Positions 9,562 through 18,360 of a DNA stretch of 64,000 nucleotides are shown here, one piece after another. The notes under the pieces are model-generated. The model saw nothing but the letters and a program-made list of their open reading frames with translations. It did no database searches and was not told where the DNA came from. Each line of letters begins with the position of its first letter. Within the stretch, counting starts at the first letter, position 1. The stretch spans positions 1-64,000 of the forward strand of contig JAADHN010000014.1 of assembly GCA_013151865.1 (NCBI GenBank), in the 5' to 3' direction. The stretch comes from Kiritimatiellota bacterium. GTDB taxonomy: Bacteria; Verrucomicrobiota; Lentisphaeria; Oligosphaerales; JAADHN01. The translations under genes were made by a program, and so were the position numbers.

Positions 9562-11784
9562 ATGGAGAATGGAGCAGGTACCCGCTTTTCAGCCCGTGCC
9601 GGTCGCGTGCCGCAGTGTTCTAAAACAAGGAGCATGACGGTACTCGTATTGTTTGTCGTCTCGCTGACAGCCTCGGTTCAGACACCGGCGGCACCCCCGC
9701 TGCCGAGTATCGAGAACATCGTGGCCCGCAAGATCTCCCTGAGTTACACTGACCCAAAACGATGTCTGCTGATGCTTCAGACGTTCGGCTATGCCACCGG
9801 CGAGGCAGGAAAGCCCGTCGATCCGAAGCGGTTGCCGTACATCATCGAGTCCCCCTCCACCAAGAATTACGACCTCCCCAACGCCAAGAATCAGAAGTTC
9901 CCTCTTACCGAGACGGACCCGATCCATGAACTGGTGGTCTTTTTCGACCGCAACCGTCCCGAGCAGTTCGGGGCTGTGCAGGAGCGGATCCGGGAAACGA
10001 TCGACGTCCCCGCCCGTCAAATCATGATCGAGGCCATGGTGCTTGAGATCTCCTCGGGCGCCCTGGCGGACCTCGGGGTCCAATGGGACCTGGACCGCTC
10101 GACCCTGAAGTCGGATGCGAACTGGCTGAAAGAGCACACAACCGGCACACTCCGGGTCGGCAACGTCGTGCTCCCGGACGGCAATGCCATTGCCAACGCC
10201 ACGTTGGACGCGACTTTCTCGGATGTTTTCAAACACTTCGAGGTCCAGTTGCGCGCTCTGATCATTGCGAAGAAGGCCAAAGTACTTTCCCGTCCCAGCG
10301 TCCTCACCCTGGACAATCGCATGGCCTACATCAACGTCTCCGAAGAGATTCCGGTGGCCGAGAGCCGCTTTCTGGCGAACGGCAACGTGAGCCAAGTGAG
10401 CTTCAAGAAAGAGACCGCCGGAATCGAACTCACGGTCCGTCCCCGAGTGAACGTCTTCGGCACGGAAATCGGCATGCAGATCGCTGCCGCGGTCACGGCG
10501 GAAATCCCCGGGGAGGAAGAAATCGTCAAGGATTTCAACGGCAACGTGGTGGCCACTTCGCCCCGCATTTCCGTGCGGCGGGTCCAGACATACGCTCGAA
10601 TCGCCAACAATACGCCCTTCATCATTGGCGGTCTGATTGCCGCAGACGACAAGGAAGCCGCCCGAAAAGTCCCTGTGCTGGGCGACATCCCGCTGATCGG
10701 CGGCCTTTTCAGGACGCGCGCCACAGACCACGGCAAGCGTGAAGTCATCATTGTGATTACGCCGCACGTACTGCCGAACGAGCGAGCCATCGCCGGCGCC
10801 CTGCCGAAGGATGAAGATTCCTTTGACAACTTCGGGAATCAACTCTTCCGCAATGCGTACCGGATTCGATCCGAAGACGTTTTCGACTTGGCATTTCTGA
10901 CGGAGAATCGCGAAATCATTCGCTTTCAGCAGGTGGCCGACAAGATCGTGACAGACAATTACGCATTGGCCGCGGCTTACCCGATCAATCACTTTGCCGG
11001 CGGACGAATCCCTGGTGAAGACATTCTGGTTTGTCGGCAGATTTACGAGGTCATCAAGCGCAAGAAGCTCGACCGCGATCTCGACATCGAGCGAACGATC
11101 TACTTCGAACCGCGCAAAGATAAAGAAGCCGGTTTCGGCGTGGATTTTCTCGTCCGTCGTCTCAAGGCCCTGGCGGATCGCGACCCGGCTTTCCCGGTGT
11201 TGACGGAGACTCCCAGCCCGGTCCGCAAAGTTCTGGCCCCGCGAAATGCCGACCGCAACCCGACCGAGGCACTCGTGCTTACCTTCGAGCCGCACCGAGA
11301 GAGTGCTCAGGCCAGCGACCTGATGCGTGAACCCGTGCCCGAACTGAAAGTGGTGGAATGTCCTGACGAACAAACGTGGGGCAAAATGCTCTGGGAACTG
11401 AACCAACCGACAGCCGACGGCGCGGCGCGGTATACCATTATACTGCGGACGCCGGAGGACCTGACCCGCTTGAAACGCGCGATTCTGTTGAAGCGTACGG
11501 TGGCGCTCAATGCACGGGATCGGGAGTTGACCCTCAAGAACTTCTCTCTCGGACACATCCTGCAATTACCTACGGTCAAGCCGGACCAAGTCTTCCTCAT
11601 CGACGCCGAGGTGGCGCGTTATTTCTTCTACACGGAACAGTACTATCCGGCCGTCCAGAAGGTCTTGGAAAAGGCCATCCAAGCCTTTCAGAAGCTCTTG
11701 AAAGAACCGGCCTTCGCCAAGTATGCGCCTTCGGTTGCAGACGCCCACTCCGAGCCCCCGGTCGGGGAGGCCGAGGCAAAGTGA
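9562..11784 (+). CDS. Secretin (type II/III/IV pilus secretin superfamily) with large C-terminal extension
   Basis: The start ATG at 9562 follows a GAGGAG ribosome binding site. A signal peptide core (MTVLVLFVVSL) lies at residues 25-35. The secretin homology domain runs from about residue 152 (QIMIEAMVLEISSG) to 405. It includes the hallmark VPVLGDIPLIGGLFR (370-384) and the closing VIIVITPHVLP. This domain forms the outer-membrane gate for secreted protein or pilus fibres. The region before it (45-150) is short and lacks clear N1-N3 repeats. The last ~330 residues (411-740) form an extension of charged alpha/beta character that I do not recognise. Its stop overlaps the GTG start of the MurC fusion, so the two are translationally coupled. 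A gspA/gspB-like pair lies 6 kb away. Function as a secretin is likely; which apparatus it serves is unknown. Confidence 0.85.
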   Translation: MENGAGTRFSARAGRVPQCSKTRSMTVLVLFVVSLTASVQTPAAPPLPSIENIVARKISLSYTDPKRCLLMLQTFGYATGEAGKPVDPKRLPYIIESPSTKNYDLPNAKNQKFPLTETDPIHELVVFFDRNRPEQFGAVQERIRETIDVPARQIMIEAMVLEISSGALADLGVQWDLDRSTLKSDANWLKEHTTGTLRVGNVVLPDGNAIANATLDATFSDVFKHFEVQLRALIIAKKAKVLSRPSVLTLDNRMAYINVSEEIPVAESRFLANGNVSQVSFKKETAGIELTVRPRVNVFGTEIGMQIAAAVTAEIPGEEEIVKDFNGNVVATSPRISVRRVQTYARIANNTPFIIGGLIAADDKEAARKVPVLGDIPLIGGLFRTRATDHGKREVIIVITPHVLPNERAIAGALPKDEDSFDNFGNQLFRNAYRIRSEDVFDLAFLTENREIIRFQQVADKIVTDNYALAAAYPINHFAGGRIPGEDILVCRQIYEVIKRKKLDRDLDIERTIYFEPRKDKEAGFGVDFLVRRLKALADRDPAFPVLTETPSPVRKVLAPRNADRNPTEALVLTFEPHRESAQASDLMREPVPELKVVECPDEQTWGKMLWELNQPTADGAARYTIILRTPEDLTRLKRAILLKRTVALNARDRELTLKNFSLGHILQLPTVKPDQVFLIDAEVARYFFYTEQYYPAVQKVLEKAIQAFQKLLKEPAFAKYAPSVADAHSEPPVGEAEAK

Positions 11785-14723
11785 GTCCCGGCCCCACGTC
11801 GAGCGACGGGCGTTGGTCTGGAAAACATTCGGCGCGCCTCATGGGCCCTTCGCCGATCCGAGCTCTCCCCCCCGCTTGCATCGACCCCCAATCGCCCTCC
11901 CCCATCCGGTTGGATCTGCCCTGGAAACGGCCGCACTTCATCGGTATCGGCGGCATGGGAATGTCCGGCTTGGCGCTCATTTGCCTGGACGCCGGGGTCT
12001 CCGTCACCGGTTCCGACCCCGCCGACTCGTGGACGGTTCGCCGGTTGCGGATTCGGGGCGCAGCAATCGCGGCCCGTCACGAGGCCGCCAACATCGGCGA
12101 CGCCGACCTCGTGGTCTTTTCCAGCGCAGTCTCGCCTGACAACCCGGAACTCGTGGCCGCGCGGCGGCGCCGGATCCGCTGTGTTTCCCGCGGCGAATTC
12201 CTGGTGGCGATAGCCGAGCTGTACCCATGCGTTGTGGCGGTAGGCGGCTCCCACGGCAAGACGACGACAACCGCCATGCTCGCCCATATTCTGCGTCGAA
12301 CAGGACGACGCCCGGGTTTCCTGGTCGGGGGCGAAGTCCGAGATCGGGATGCCCCGGCACGCATCGGTTCGGGGACAATCTTCGTGACCGAGGTCGACGA
12401 GAGCGACGGCTCTCAAGCGCTCTTGAATTCGTCCATTGCGGTCGTGCTCAACATCGACGACGACCACAGTTGGGCTTTGGGCGGCCCCCGGGCGCTGGAA
12501 GAGTGTTTCCAAGAATTCGCCGCGCGGGGACGCGAGCTGGTGGTTTTGCGAACTCCGCAAACCGAACGCCTCTGCCGACGTCATCCGGCCGCCCACCTTG
12601 TCGAGGCACACGCAGTCCGGGCCCTGCCCGAACTGCCGGTCCCCGGAACGCACAACCGCCTGAACGCGGCGATTGCCGTCCACGTGGCAGTGCGGCTTGG
12701 GGTCTCGGCAGACGAAGCACAAGCTGCTCTGGGCAGTTTCCCGGGTGTCCTCCGCCGCCTGACCGAGCGGTTTTGCACTCCCGACGGCACCGTGACGGTC
12801 ATCGAGGATTATGCTCACCACCCTACGGAACTCGCAGCCGCTCTTGTCGCTATTCGCCGAACTCATCCCGACAAGCGGTTGGTCGTGGTTTTTCAACCGC
12901 ATCGATTCGAGCGGGCCCGCCGGTACGCAGCCCGTTTTGCCGCGTGCTTGGAAGAAAACGCGGACGCGGCAGCCGTACTCCCCACTTTTGCCGCCTGGAA
13001 GCCAGGCCCGGGCGGTGACCCCGCCGAGGCGCTGGCAAACGAGATTCGACGGATTCCGGCCCGCTTCATGCCGGTCCCGAGTCGCAACCTGCTCCGTCAA
13101 CTGACCGCATGGATGTCCGAAAAAAGGACGACGGGGACAGCCCCGGAGCGCCCCCGCTGGGTCATCGCGTTTATCGGGGCGGGCGATATTCGAAAACACA
13201 TTCCGGGCGTCGTTGACTTTCTCGTAACCCGGTGCAAGAGTGAATTGGCGGAACGCCTGCGAGGCGCCGGGGCCGACTTGATCGTTCGCCTGGATCGCCC
13301 CTGGCGCGATTTGACTGCGTATGGTGTCGGTTCGGCCTGTCCCGTGGTCTTGGAACCGAGAACAAGGGCCGCCCGGACCCGAGCCGAGGCCATTGTCCGC
13401 GGAGCGGGGTTCGCAACGCATGTTCTGGCCGCGGGCGCTCCGACCCGCTTGGTGGGGACCGACCGCGAAACACTCGTGGCCGTGCTCTTCCCCCGCCCCG
13501 CCACCGAGCAGACAATCGGCGCGACCGATACGGTCCCGTCCGCGCCAATGTTCGAAGCGGTGGGGGACCTCCCGGCCGAACATTTCACGGCTCGAGTCGA
13601 TTGTGCAATCATCGAGTCCGGCGGCTGCCGTCTCGATCCGCGTCACCCGAACCGCATTCTGTCCCGCCCGGATGCGCGGGAATCGGATTTTGTGACTGTG
13701 TTGCTGACTGTGCGCCGCCGCGTGTACGATTCAATGGGGGTTCGCTTGATGCCTGCCTGTCGATTTGTCAACCAAGAGAGTGCACAACTCGTGACGTCCG
13801 AACCTGCCGCTGCACACATTGCCGTGCTGTCGGGCGGTCCCCCGGAATGCACCGAGCGAGAGACCTCGCTGACTTCCGGAGCGGCGGTGGCCGCGGGCCT
13901 GCGGGAAGCAGGGTATCGGGTCACGGAGATAGAAGTCGCCGCGGCGACTCTTCCCCCGATCCCCCACGGAACGGACGCGGTCTTCCCCGCCCTGCACGGT
14001 TACTTCGGGGAGGACGGCGGCATCCAGGAACTGCTCGACGAACGGGGCGTCCCGTACGTGGGGAGCGGTGCAACGGCCAGTCGCCTTATGATGGACAAGA
14101 CAGCCTCCAAAGCGGCTGTGCGCGCCGCCGGCGTGCCGGTCCCCGCGGCGGTACGCCTGTCCGGTCCCGGGGCGCCGTTGCCGGCAAAGCTCGGTTTTCC
14201 GCTCATCGTCAAGCCGAATGGTCAAGGGTCGTCGGTGGCAGTCACGCGACTGTACTCGGCTGAAGACGGCTGGCAAGAGGCCGTATCCGTCGCATTCGCC
14301 GTCAGTGAAGACGTCATTGCGGAGCAATACATCGAAGGCACCGAGATCACGGTCGGACTCTTGGATGGACGTCCCCTTCCGGTAATCGAAATCATCCCTC
14401 CTGGCGGCCGCATCTTCGATAAAGACGCCAAGTACGCTCACACCCATGGACACACTCAGTATCTCTGCCCGCCGCGGCATGTCTCGCCGGCCGTCTGTGA
14501 GCGAGCGCGGGAACTGGCCCTGACCGCCTGGAACGTTTTGAAGGCCCGGGACATGCTGCGCGTGGACTTCATCGTAGACGCAGATGGGACCCCGTGGTTT
14601 CTCGAGGCCAACAGCATCCCGGGTTTCACTGCAACCAGTCTGCTGCCCATGGCCGCCAAGCACGTGGGCATCAGCTTCGCCGAACTCTGCGGCAGACTGG
14701 TGCGGGCTCATCTGTCGGGCTGA
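11781..14723 (+). CDS. murC: MurC - MurB-like remnant - D-Ala-D-Ala ligase fusion
   Basis: This 980-residue protein combines cytoplasmic peptidoglycan steps. Residues ~49-480 are MurC (UDP-MurNAc:L-Ala ligase), with an IGIGGMGMSGLA nucleotide motif, the ATP loop GGSHGKTTTT near residue 155, and HPTELAAAL in the Mur-ligase C-domain. Residues ~678-980 are Ddl (D-Ala:D-Ala ligase), an ATP-grasp enzyme with ALHGYFGEDG, MMDKTASKAA and FLEANSIPGFT. Between them, ~493-663 looks like a shrunken MurB. It keeps a DLTAYGVGSA / VVLEPRT start and a GVRLMPACRFV end. The FAD-binding GGGSN signature and the central catalytic part are gone. MurC-Ddl fusion is known in chlamydiae. The GTG at 11781 has GGAGG upstream and overlaps the secretin stop (GTGA). 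An ATG at 11841 is an alternative. Confidence 0.88.
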   Translation: MSPGPTSSDGRWSGKHSARLMGPSPIRALPPACIDPQSPSPIRLDLPWKRPHFIGIGGMGMSGLALICLDAGVSVTGSDPADSWTVRRLRIRGAAIAARHEAANIGDADLVVFSSAVSPDNPELVAARRRRIRCVSRGEFLVAIAELYPCVVAVGGSHGKTTTTAMLAHILRRTGRRPGFLVGGEVRDRDAPARIGSGTIFVTEVDESDGSQALLNSSIAVVLNIDDDHSWALGGPRALEECFQEFAARGRELVVLRTPQTERLCRRHPAAHLVEAHAVRALPELPVPGTHNRLNAAIAVHVAVRLGVSADEAQAALGSFPGVLRRLTERFCTPDGTVTVIEDYAHHPTELAAALVAIRRTHPDKRLVVVFQPHRFERARRYAARFAACLEENADAAAVLPTFAAWKPGPGGDPAEALANEIRRIPARFMPVPSRNLLRQLTAWMSEKRTTGTAPERPRWVIAFIGAGDIRKHIPGVVDFLVTRCKSELAERLRGAGADLIVRLDRPWRDLTAYGVGSACPVVLEPRTRAARTRAEAIVRGAGFATHVLAAGAPTRLVGTDRETLVAVLFPRPATEQTIGATDTVPSAPMFEAVGDLPAEHFTARVDCAIIESGGCRLDPRHPNRILSRPDARESDFVTVLLTVRRRVYDSMGVRLMPACRFVNQESAQLVTSEPAAAHIAVLSGGPPECTERETSLTSGAAVAAGLREAGYRVTEIEVAAATLPPIPHGTDAVFPALHGYFGEDGGIQELLDERGVPYVGSGATASRLMMDKTASKAAVRAAGVPVPAAVRLSGPGAPLPAKLGFPLIVKPNGQGSSVAVTRLYSAEDGWQEAVSVAFAVSEDVIAEQYIEGTEITVGLLDGRPLPVIEIIPPGGRIFDKDAKYAHTHGHTQYLCPPRHVSPAVCERARELALTAWNVLKARDMLRVDFIVDADGTPWFLEANSIPGFTATSLLPMAAKHVGISFAELCGRLVRAHLSG

Positions 14724-14815: not shown

Positions 14816-16888
14816 TCATTCGCGCCCGGACAGCTCCACGAAAAAAACACTGAAAAGAGGCATGTCGAGCGTCAGGTTGCCGGCGCCCTGGGCGTCGAAA
14901 CGTACAGAAAGGGTTTCGGGGGGGGGCAAACCCGCAGCCTTGGTGAGTCTGTCGAGCAGAGTCCCCACGCGCTTTTCCCTGTCGGAGCCGAGCCGCCCCT
15001 CGACCCACTTCAACAATTCCGTGCGAGTGACCTGCGGTCTCTCCCATGCCACCCAATCATCATAGGCGTTGCCGAGGCTCGGAGTCACGCGTGAAACCTG
15101 CACCCGGACAAGATTACCGGCGAACCCGGGAACAGTGAAGCGAAACCCCACGCGTGTGCTGAACGTAACGCGAGGGTCCTCCACATAGTTGCCGACGATG
15201 ACGCCAAGGCACGAGCGATCTGCATCCCAGGCGGCCAGTGCGACAATCGGCTCATTGCTCGATTCGGCGGCCACGCGCGCCCCTCTCAGCCGGTCCAGAA
15301 ACTCGAACACATGAAACGGCGCTTTGGGAAACCCCGGGGCGGTGAACAGGCCGAGACCAGAGCGGAAGACCATCCGGCTTCTCCCATGCAGGGAATCGCC
15401 GATGCAAGACGTAAACGCCTTATCGATCCCCAATCGGTCCATTGCGAGGAGCCCCTTAAGAATGAACGGGGCCCGGTAGCTGTCGTCCAACCAAGGATTG
15501 GAGAGTCTATTGCAGGACCATTCGGTGATCATCCGCGGCAGTTTTCCGAGTTTCGGAAAGGGCTTGAGTTTGTCGTCGACCTGACGAACGCTCCGCTGAA
15601 TGTCCGAGAACACCGGGACCCCCACGCCGCCGCAGTAGATGTGCCAAGAAAAGAAGTCGATCCGCGTCCCGGTCCGCCCCGTGACCGCGTTACGGCCGTC
15701 GGCGCAGTGTTCAGCCAAACGCTCGACCCAGTCGCTCCCCCTGCTTCCGGGGCCGCCAATTCGGACCTGGGGACAGGCCCGGACCGCACCAGCCACCGTA
15801 TAATCGTACAAGGCCAAGTAGGTATTGATCGAACCGGTATCGTCCACGACGCCGTCCGTCTCGTTCCGGACCTCGAAATACCAGGAACGGACTTCCTCGA
15901 GTCCGTACTTGTCGACGCAATGTCGGACCAGTTCTTCGGTCAAGGCCCGCCGGCTCTGAAGGTCGGGACGGGAGTTATCGCCGGGCCGTCCCTGTCCCTC
16001 CCGTGCAATCGAGGCCGGGGCGCCCTCCAGCACCACCATCGGCCTCATATGGAGCTTCAACAGCGGCTCGAGACCGGCGTCGAACCGGCCCCAATCATAA
16101 ACCGAAGCGCCGCGCTCGTCACGGGACACCTTCGTGGCGGCCAGGCATTCATGGAAGCGCACCAGCCTGAAGCCGGTATGGGCCAGCCGAGAGAAGGTTC
16201 GACTGTGCCGGGGGACAAGCGCATCATTCAAAGGGCCATTGTCGATACATCGCCAAAGCTGTGGGAGCGCTCCCGCCGAACGCGTTGAATCGACACGTAC
16301 GGTTGCGAACTCCGCACGGAAGGGGCGCGGCTCGGGAGCGTACGGATCGGGCCGTACGACGACCTGGATGTCGTCGAACCACGCGCGACCGCGGCACCCA
16401 CGTCCGTATTCGAGTCGAACTTGAAACGCCCGAACGCACGCCGGGAGGACAAACTCCCGACTGAAGCGACTCCACGGGTGGGTCCCCGCAATGAGACCGA
16501 TGTCCACGTAGCCGATGGCGGTCCGACCCCGGTCCAACTGCGCCACAGTGAGACTCGCGGCGTCCCACGGGCGCTCCCCGCGCGACAAGCTTTCGGTCCG
16601 GATCCACCCGGACACGGAAATGAGTCCGCCGGGGTTGTCCAAAACCGGTGAACCGACGCAGACTCGACCGTTGAGCAAGAGACTGTGCTTTCCCGTATGC
16701 GCGCCCCCTGTCACGACGCGGCCGTTTTCGGGCTGCCCCCACAACGTTTTCCAGGCGCGTCTTCCAGAACGGGCCGGGGTCTCGAATCCGGGGTTTTTCA
16801 AGAGAAAACGGGGCTCGCCCCCACGCAGAGAAACGACGCCGCACACAGCCAGCAGACTCCCGAGCCGCACCGGAATTCCCAGAATCAC
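14816..16888 (-). CDS. GH39-like secreted glycoside hydrolase with N-terminal carbohydrate-binding-like module
   Basis: The best start is a GTG at 16888 with GGGGAGAG five bases upstream. It gives a 690-residue protein beginning with a signal peptide (VRLGSLLAVCGVVSL). The longer ATG start at 16990 would bury the signal. Residues ~30-200 resemble a beta-sandwich carbohydrate-binding module, with a LLKNPGFETP start and WFDDIQVV near its end. The TIM barrel carries WYFEVRNETD with Glu 343 as candidate acid/base and MITEWSCN with Glu 456 as candidate nucleophile. Their 113-residue spacing is close to that of GH39 beta-xylosidases. The usual Asn-Glu-Pro is Asn-Glu-Thr here. Substrate is unknown; xylosidic, iduronic or other uronic linkages are possible. 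It is convergent with the MurC fusion and transcribed alone. Confidence 0.75.
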   Translation of the reverse strand: MILGIPVRLGSLLAVCGVVSLRGGEPRFLLKNPGFETPARSGRRAWKTLWGQPENGRVVTGGAHTGKHSLLLNGRVCVGSPVLDNPGGLISVSGWIRTESLSRGERPWDAASLTVAQLDRGRTAIGYVDIGLIAGTHPWSRFSREFVLPACVRAFQVRLEYGRGCRGRAWFDDIQVVVRPDPYAPEPRPFRAEFATVRVDSTRSAGALPQLWRCIDNGPLNDALVPRHSRTFSRLAHTGFRLVRFHECLAATKVSRDERGASVYDWGRFDAGLEPLLKLHMRPMVVLEGAPASIAREGQGRPGDNSRPDLQSRRALTEELVRHCVDKYGLEEVRSWYFEVRNETDGVVDDTGSINTYLALYDYTVAGAVRACPQVRIGGPGSRGSDWVERLAEHCADGRNAVTGRTGTRIDFFSWHIYCGGVGVPVFSDIQRSVRQVDDKLKPFPKLGKLPRMITEWSCNRLSNPWLDDSYRAPFILKGLLAMDRLGIDKAFTSCIGDSLHGRSRMVFRSGLGLFTAPGFPKAPFHVFEFLDRLRGARVAAESSNEPIVALAAWDADRSCLGVIVGNYVEDPRVTFSTRVGFRFTVPGFAGNLVRVQVSRVTPSLGNAYDDWVAWERPQVTRTELLKWVEGRLGSDREKRVGTLLDRLTKAAGLPPPETLSVRFDAQGAGNLTLDMPLFSVFFVELSGRE

Positions 16889-17547
16889 TTTTCTCTCCCC
16901 GGTCCACGGACCAGCATCGCCGGACTCAAACTCGTGACGGCCTCGACATACTGCCAAGTCGGGCCACGAGGATAGCCGATCATCCGGCAATGATCCGGAA
17001 TACTGGAGTCCTCACCATCACCGGAGCAATCCTGAACCTGTCTGCGCGCCTCGGGAATGCACATCTTGCCCGCCCCGTACGTGATCAATCGATGACCGAT
17101 TCACTGCCCCGTCACGGATTCACGGCAGGGCCCGACAGGCAGTCCCGGCCCGCACTCCGGCAAAGTCGGCAACAAGCGCTGTACGCGCAATCCCGTCGTC
17201 CGAGCCCCGTTGCGATCATACCCGGGGGGAATGGGATGCTGCTCGTTACCGTACGGCCCGGATGCTCGGCTTCAAGCGATCACGCTCTCACGCGCCGTCT
17301 TTCATGTGGCTTGATTCCGGCATAAGACCTGCTTACAGTACTGGATTAAGCGTGTTCCCCCGGAACATGGCAACCGTCGCAACCGAGCGGTTGCCATGCC
17401 GGGCCGGTACGTCCGTGCTTTTGGGCCGGGCCGCTGATCGCACCGACAACGAGTGCGTCCCAGGATTGCGAGAACGAGTTGGCAGGACCTGCGAGTTCGT
17501 TTGCACGACAGTTCATTTTGAAACGATCTGCAGCCGGGAAGGGTAAT
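16889..17547. other. Divergent intergenic region between the GH39-like gene and gspA
   Basis: About 660 bases with no supportable gene. It must contain promoters for both flanking genes. The one clear structure is the 33-base inverted repeat at 17366-17398, listed separately. Confidence 0.45.
17366..17398. repeat. Perfect 11-bp inverted repeat
   Basis: The arm catggcaaccg (17366-17376) is matched exactly by cggttgccatg (17388-17398) around an 11-base spacer. The spacer holds a second gcaaccg, so the right arm can pair with either of two left arms, giving two mutually exclusive hairpins. It lies 150 bases before the gspA-like start. It could be an operator or an RNA switch; there is no T run, so a simple terminator is unlikely. 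Confidence 0.6.
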
Positions 17548-18360
17548 GTGTATACCCAGTTCTACGGATTCACGGAACCCCCGTTCAAGATTACGCCAGA
17601 CCCGAAGTATCTTTTCCTGAGCGAAAAACATCAGGAAGCCCTCAACCACCTTCTGTTCGGGATCCAGAACCGGACGGGGTTCATCCAATTGACGGGGGAA
17701 GTGGGGTCCGGCAAGACCACAGTCTGCCGTGCCCTTTTTCAGGAACTGGACGATCGGTATGCGACCGCCCTGATCCTCAATCCGATGCTCTCGGAGGGGC
17801 AACTGCTGCGAGCGATCCTCCAAGAATTCGGGATCGAAAAATGTGCGCGGGACCGTCTTCGAAACTACCAAACACTCAACGAGTTCCTGCTCGACCTCGT
17901 TTCACGCAAGCGAGATGCCGTCCTCGTCATTGACGAAGCCCAAGACCTGCCGGCCTCCCTGTTGGAAATGGTCCGTCTGCTCTCGAATCTCGAGACGGAC
18001 AACCAAAAACTGATCCAGATCCTCTTGGTTGGACAACCTGAACTCCGGGACAAACTCGATGCACCTGCACTGCGTCAGCTCCGGCAACGCATCACGATCC
18101 GCTATCACCTGAATTCTCTGAACGAGACCGAAACTCAAAGGTATATTGCGCACCGGATGTCCGTGGCGGGCGGCAGAGGGGTGCCGGCCTTCGAGCGGGC
18201 GGCATTGCGACGTATCTACCGGTATTCGCGCGGCGTGCCGCGGCTTATCAATGCGTTGGCAGACAAAGCGTTGTTGGCGGGTTACGTTCACCGCAGCGAC
18301 GTGATTACCGCGAAGCTCGTGCTCCGGGCGGAACGAGAACTTGAGGGATTGTTCGAATGA
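17548..18360 (+). CDS. GspA/ExeA-like AAA ATPase
   Basis: The frame opens at 17479. The family start (Tyr-x-x-Phe-Tyr-Gly-Phe) fits the GTG at 17548, which has GGGAAGGG a few bases upstream, giving 270 residues. The Walker A is GEVGSGKTT (near residue 48) and the Walker B is AVLVIDEAQDLP. The sensor/arginine region RQRITIRYHLNSL and the C-terminal AAA lid (YSRGVPRLINALADKALL) are typical of ExeA-type ATPases. With GspB these help place or assemble the type II secretion secretin through peptidoglycan. This copy lacks the C-terminal peptidoglycan-binding part of full-length ExeA. The stop overlaps the next ATG (ATGA), so the pair is translationally coupled. Confidence 0.88.
   Translation: MYTQFYGFTEPPFKITPDPKYLFLSEKHQEALNHLLFGIQNRTGFIQLTGEVGSGKTTVCRALFQELDDRYATALILNPMLSEGQLLRAILQEFGIEKCARDRLRNYQTLNEFLLDLVSRKRDAVLVIDEAQDLPASLLEMVRLLSNLETDNQKLIQILLVGQPELRDKLDAPALRQLRQRITIRYHLNSLNETETQRYIAHRMSVAGGRGVPAFERAALRRIYRYSRGVPRLINALADKALLAGYVHRSDVITAKLVLRAERELEGLFE

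Follow-up and report, generated by a model that had tools for sequence, protein, structure and literature searches.

A MurC-Ddl fusion protein with a putatively decayed MurB domain in a lentisphaeral draft genome that carries a second, murA-linked murB

Fusions between enzymes of the Mur pathway have been described previously, e.g., for Verrucomicrobium spinosum, whose MurB/MurC fusion has an active MurC and a fused MurB that complements a murB mutant, though no activity of the latter was seen in vitro (PMC4803751). In Chlamydia trachomatis, MurC and Ddl are joined, and the activity of Ddl depends on the fusion to MurC, as far as the work of McCoy and Maurelli (2005) is cited in PMC4803751. 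Within the literature searched, a scope that leaves most subscription journals outside, no report was found of a MurC-MurB-Ddl fusion or of a decayed MurB.

The gene studied here lies in a stretch of 64,000 nucleotides of contig JAADHN010000014.1 (the window), which belongs to a lentisphaeral draft genome of 176 contigs, the sole member of its own family among the genomes compared. Its coding sequence (11841..14723, forward strand) is open from an ATG start over 960 amino acids and has no internal stop codon; the frame as such can be extended upstream to 11376. NCBIfam and Pfam matches assign the first half of the protein to MurC and the last third to Ddl, and the whole reads as MurC, a 167-residue MurB remnant, and Ddl in one chain. 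In the MurC part (11913..13220, forward strand), all three Mur ligase domains exceed the Pfam cut-offs, the P-loop GSHGKT (GSHGKTT at 12246-12266) and the conserved residues are present, and 68 of the 69 columns that are invariant in relatives are kept; the score of 306.5 bits against TIGR01082 lies under the whole-protein cut-off of 335.1. The Ddl part (D-Ala-D-Ala ligase; 13809..14714, forward strand) reaches 278 bits against NF002378, which exceeds the cut-off of 243, comprises both the N and the C domain, retains 75 of 77 invariant columns, and is the sole strong Ddl match genome-wide. Judged by their sequences, both parts look functional and are predicted to be working ligases. Against NF011171, the model of the chlamydial-type MurC-Ddl bifunctional enzyme, the fusion protein scores 300.8 bits and does not reach the cut-off of 1015. 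The gene is not within a division or cell wall cluster; a secretin-domain protein is encoded upstream (9562-11784), and a convergent gene for a family 39 glycoside hydrolase (14819-17011) followed by one for an AAA ATPase (17350-18357) lies downstream.

The initial annotation had described a degenerate MurB segment between the two ligases at 13258-13770, and these limits fit the remnant as placed here by profile, alignment, and Foldseek (residues 479-645; 13275..13775, forward strand). Because its Pfam signal is weak (MurB_C only, 18.9 to 22.4 bits, below the cut-off of 27), a profile was built from 16 intact fused MurBs of relatives, with the window sequence excluded. This profile matches the segment with 58 bits (E = 3.3e-16, all ORFs of 200+ loci) in two co-linear pieces, so that both ends of MurB are indeed kept as had been claimed: profile positions 4-70 of 287 correspond to residues 482-550 (13284..13490) and positions 214-286 to residues 570-642 (13548..13766). 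With its retained ends homologous to and co-linear with the fused MurBs of relatives, the segment is MurB by descent. The central half and the GGGSN signature are missing, again in line with the first reading. A stretch of 19 residues (13491..13547) replaces about 143 profile positions (71-213), i.e., the FAD/substrate core with PGTxGGAxxMNAG and WxYRxS, and instead of the FAD-binding G-G/x-GSN motif the remnant has LAAGAPTRLVGTD (13434-13463) where relatives have LGxGSNLVGxD, LGxGSN being changed to LAAGAPT with GAPT in place of GSN. The C-terminal piece starts with SAPM instead of the proton-donor motif SAGS/C (SAGC), HAN is changed to HPN (13644-13652), and PEV is changed to PAC in MPACRF (13749-13766), which replaces the catalytic-type Glu by Ala. 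The altered positions are those that we take to be catalytic by reference to Ser229, Arg159, and Glu325 of E. coli MurB.

Intact counterparts were found in eight genomes of the same order (L033, L034, L035, L039, L041, L042, L044, and L045), where families f3, f4, f6, and f7 have MurC-MurB-Ddl proteins of 1054 to 1145 amino acids, and in three genomes of another family of the same class, f11 (L049-L051; 1027 to 1035 amino acids), which shows that such triple fusions are widespread in Lentisphaeria. Families f2, f5, f9, and f10 have MurC-MurB without Ddl, and family f8 has stand-alone enzymes. In a tree of MurC plus Ddl rooted on f11, the window protein falls among the fusions of the order, and proteins with all three enzymes (f3, f4, f6, f7, and f11) are found on either side of the root. 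The triple fusion is accordingly the most economical ancestral state, as had been supposed, and with intact triple fusions both in the same order and in f11, the decay is derived. The MurC nearest to that of the window (support, 85) is from Lentisphaeria bacterium ETNP2_MAG_64 (L099), which has a stand-alone murC and a separate ddl within about 100 bases, with no trace of MurB between them.

Several other arrangements of these genes were observed among the relatives. An apparent direct MurC-Ddl fusion in family f12 (open frame of about 750 amino acids) was rejected, as an in-frame stop separates two ORFs; at the loci L256 (G049) and L257 (G058), murC and ddl are arranged in tandem within one reading frame, separated by a sole stop codon and one substitution short of a MurC-Ddl fusion. 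MurB-Ddl fusions without MurC seem to be common in family f14: MurB occurs in proteins of about 612 to 804 amino acids (L061, L070, L073, L187-L192, L197, L198, L201, L204, L206-L209, and L213, mostly f14), and Ddl matches were found in the same frame as that MurB where searched (e.g., G059). In genus g23 of family f8, five genomes that are 85 to 90% complete (G024, G025, G036, G037, and G041) are without MurB_C, MurA (E ≤ 1e-40), and a strong MurC and have kept MurG; in this genus, the first peptidoglycan steps may have been lost or may have diverged strongly.

The remnant has diverged faster than the ligases that flank it. Relative to the eight intact same-order fusions, the identity of the window protein is 49% for MurC (55% among the intact proteins), 56.5% for Ddl (58%), and 32% for the ends of the remnant, compared with 46% and 52% in intact pairs. 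Only 13 of 22 invariant columns are kept (8 of 11 and 5 of 11 in the two pieces), and the MurB pieces of every intact fusion, tested likewise, kept at least 11 of 12. The end branch of the remnant in the MurB tree has a length of 2.63 (median, 0.42), and that of the window protein in the MurC plus Ddl tree one of 0.83 (median, 0.43). The remnant is known from a single MAG; searches of 48 genomes of the order and, more widely, of genome contigs recovered no close relative that shares it.

A functional MurB had been expected elsewhere in the genome, and the search for it led to a complete gene next to murA, here called murB2. The sole other MurB_C match lies at the end of contig C112 (19095-19839; L052), cut by the contig end, and the missing half, with GGGSN, is located at the end of contig C160 (82686-83019; L177). 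The reading of murB2 thus spans two contig ends that are linked by an exact 59-bp overlap only, which joins them in one frame to a protein of 340 residues with all MurB motifs (GGGSN on C160; GIPGTVGGA, SAGC, HHGNF, and the final Glu on C112). It scores 196 bits against PRK13905 and 139 bits against TIGR00179, just below the cut-off of 144.5. Exactly at the assembly break, murB2 has a proline-rich in-frame insert of about 30 residues (PECPPPILDPVHPDLRPQGPRPPTPTAGGDAP), and a second close copy of the insert DNA was not found in the genome. The gene lies directly downstream of murA, whose stop codon overlaps the TTG start of murB2, and this murA is the only one of the genome, the other EPSP-type gene being aroA. 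Contamination by the two contigs was rejected on the basis of their composition (tetranucleotide correlation with the window contig of 0.93 to 0.96; other genomes, 0.2 to 0.8) and because the sole murA is on C160.

In family f8, a stand-alone murB was found directly behind murA at 12 loci, and none was found in this position among the examined murA loci of the fusion families. Trees place murB2 outside the fused MurBs; in AU tests, neither a clade with the fused MurBs (p = 0.18 to 0.23) nor one with the f8 murB (p = 0.31) was rejected, and the stand-alone MurB of L099 shares only 25% identity with it. The gene may have been linked to murA for a long time or may have been acquired, and it presumably does the job of the fused MurB instead. 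A strong second MurB was found in none of the other relatives with an intact fused MurB.

The most probable explanation, to which we assign a probability of roughly 0.85, is that the fused MurB became redundant and inactive and was retained as a spacer that separates two functional ligases, with murB2 supplying the reductase. The ancestor would have had the MurC-MurB-Ddl fusion that is common in the order, and the stand-alone murB2 in its operon with murA would have freed the fused MurB from selection. The latter would then have lost its central block of about 143 residues together with catalytic and cofactor residues, and would have drifted since. The frame is unbroken and the block deletion is in frame, presumably because Ddl is translated behind the remnant, and the dependence of the chlamydial Ddl on MurC provides a reason why the fusion chain might stay whole. 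The remnant would remain, probably still folded, between MurC and Ddl, and the role of a linker suggested in the initial annotation is plausible, that of a regulatory domain, also suggested there, being conjectural.

The predicted structure of the remnant bears on whether it is more than a passive spacer. AlphaFold2, supplied with the segment and five intact relatives, gave a model with a mean pLDDT of 80 (intact control, 88) and low values only around the deletion site and at the ends, the alignment of intact MurBs biasing this model towards MurB so that it cannot prove folding. The first 18 hits of the model in a Foldseek search of the PDB are all MurB crystal structures (best match, E = 8e-6; TM score of 0.61 by query length), and the likeness to MurB that had been proposed was recovered by profile and predicted fold alike. 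The remnant retains 19 of its 26 hydrophobic core columns (9 of 14, p = 0.0095; 10 of 12, p = 0.001), which is above chance though lower than in MurC and Ddl (127 of 133). The model fits a lean, partly eroded MurB-like fold, and the kept core hydrophobics together with the pLDDT of 80 hint at some constraint on it. The remnant might instead have been kept as a folded domain that has taken over another task, e.g., UDP-sugar binding, subunit joining, or the coupling of MurC and Ddl. In favor of this are these hydrophobics, a deletion that spares both outer portions of MurB, where the pLDDT is near 90, and the dependence of the chlamydial Ddl on the fused form, as cited in PMC4803751. We nevertheless regard such a domain as unlikely, given that the cofactor- and substrate-holding residues of MurB are gone, that 9 of the 22 invariant columns are lost on a branch about six times the median, and that the fold prediction depends on intact homologues.

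An assembly error that dropped the MurB core from a really intact gene is conceivable in a draft of 176 contigs, but very improbable here. The retained ends are strongly diverged and have lost catalytic residues, and therefore a dropped block is not the cause; moreover, the frame is kept, and a separate full murB is present in the genome. The idea that the segment is an unrelated linker resembling MurB by chance, for which the weak single-sequence and Pfam signals might speak, is refuted by the match to the profile of the relatives, whose pieces are correctly ordered and occupy the site between MurC and Ddl at which intact fusions have their MurB, and by Foldseek matches that are MurB; its probability is negligible.

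Redundancy of the fused MurB is hence our preferred reading, and the locus would represent an essential fusion of three enzymes with one domain caught in the middle of its decay, for which the second murB of this genome is the likely cause. Annotation pipelines could miscount the remnant protein as the MurB of the genome and could miss the real murB, which is split over two contigs. A more far-reaching and rather doubtful idea is that the remnant marks a route from MurC-MurB-Ddl to MurC-Ddl on which a dead MurB is kept as a folded, needed spacer or coupling domain, and that a stage of this kind could also lie in the past of the chlamydial MurC-Ddl.

With respect to known systems, the intact triple fusions of Lentisphaeria share the domain order, the MurC and Ddl sequences, and the position of MurB with the window protein, but differ from it by an intact MurB with all motifs in genomes where no strong second MurB was found. 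The comparison with the MurC-Ddl of C. trachomatis, in which two ligases likewise end up on a single chain, is drawn from the literature, the comparison of sequences being the NF011171 match below its cut-off. The murA-murB operons of family f8 correspond to the arrangement of murB2 directly behind murA, whereas murB2 itself is highly diverged. The MurB/MurC protein of V. spinosum likewise joins enzymes of the Mur pathway in a PVC bacterium, but it lacks Ddl, and its fused MurB still complements a murB mutant. Overall, the window protein is a variant of the known Mur fusions and not a new system.
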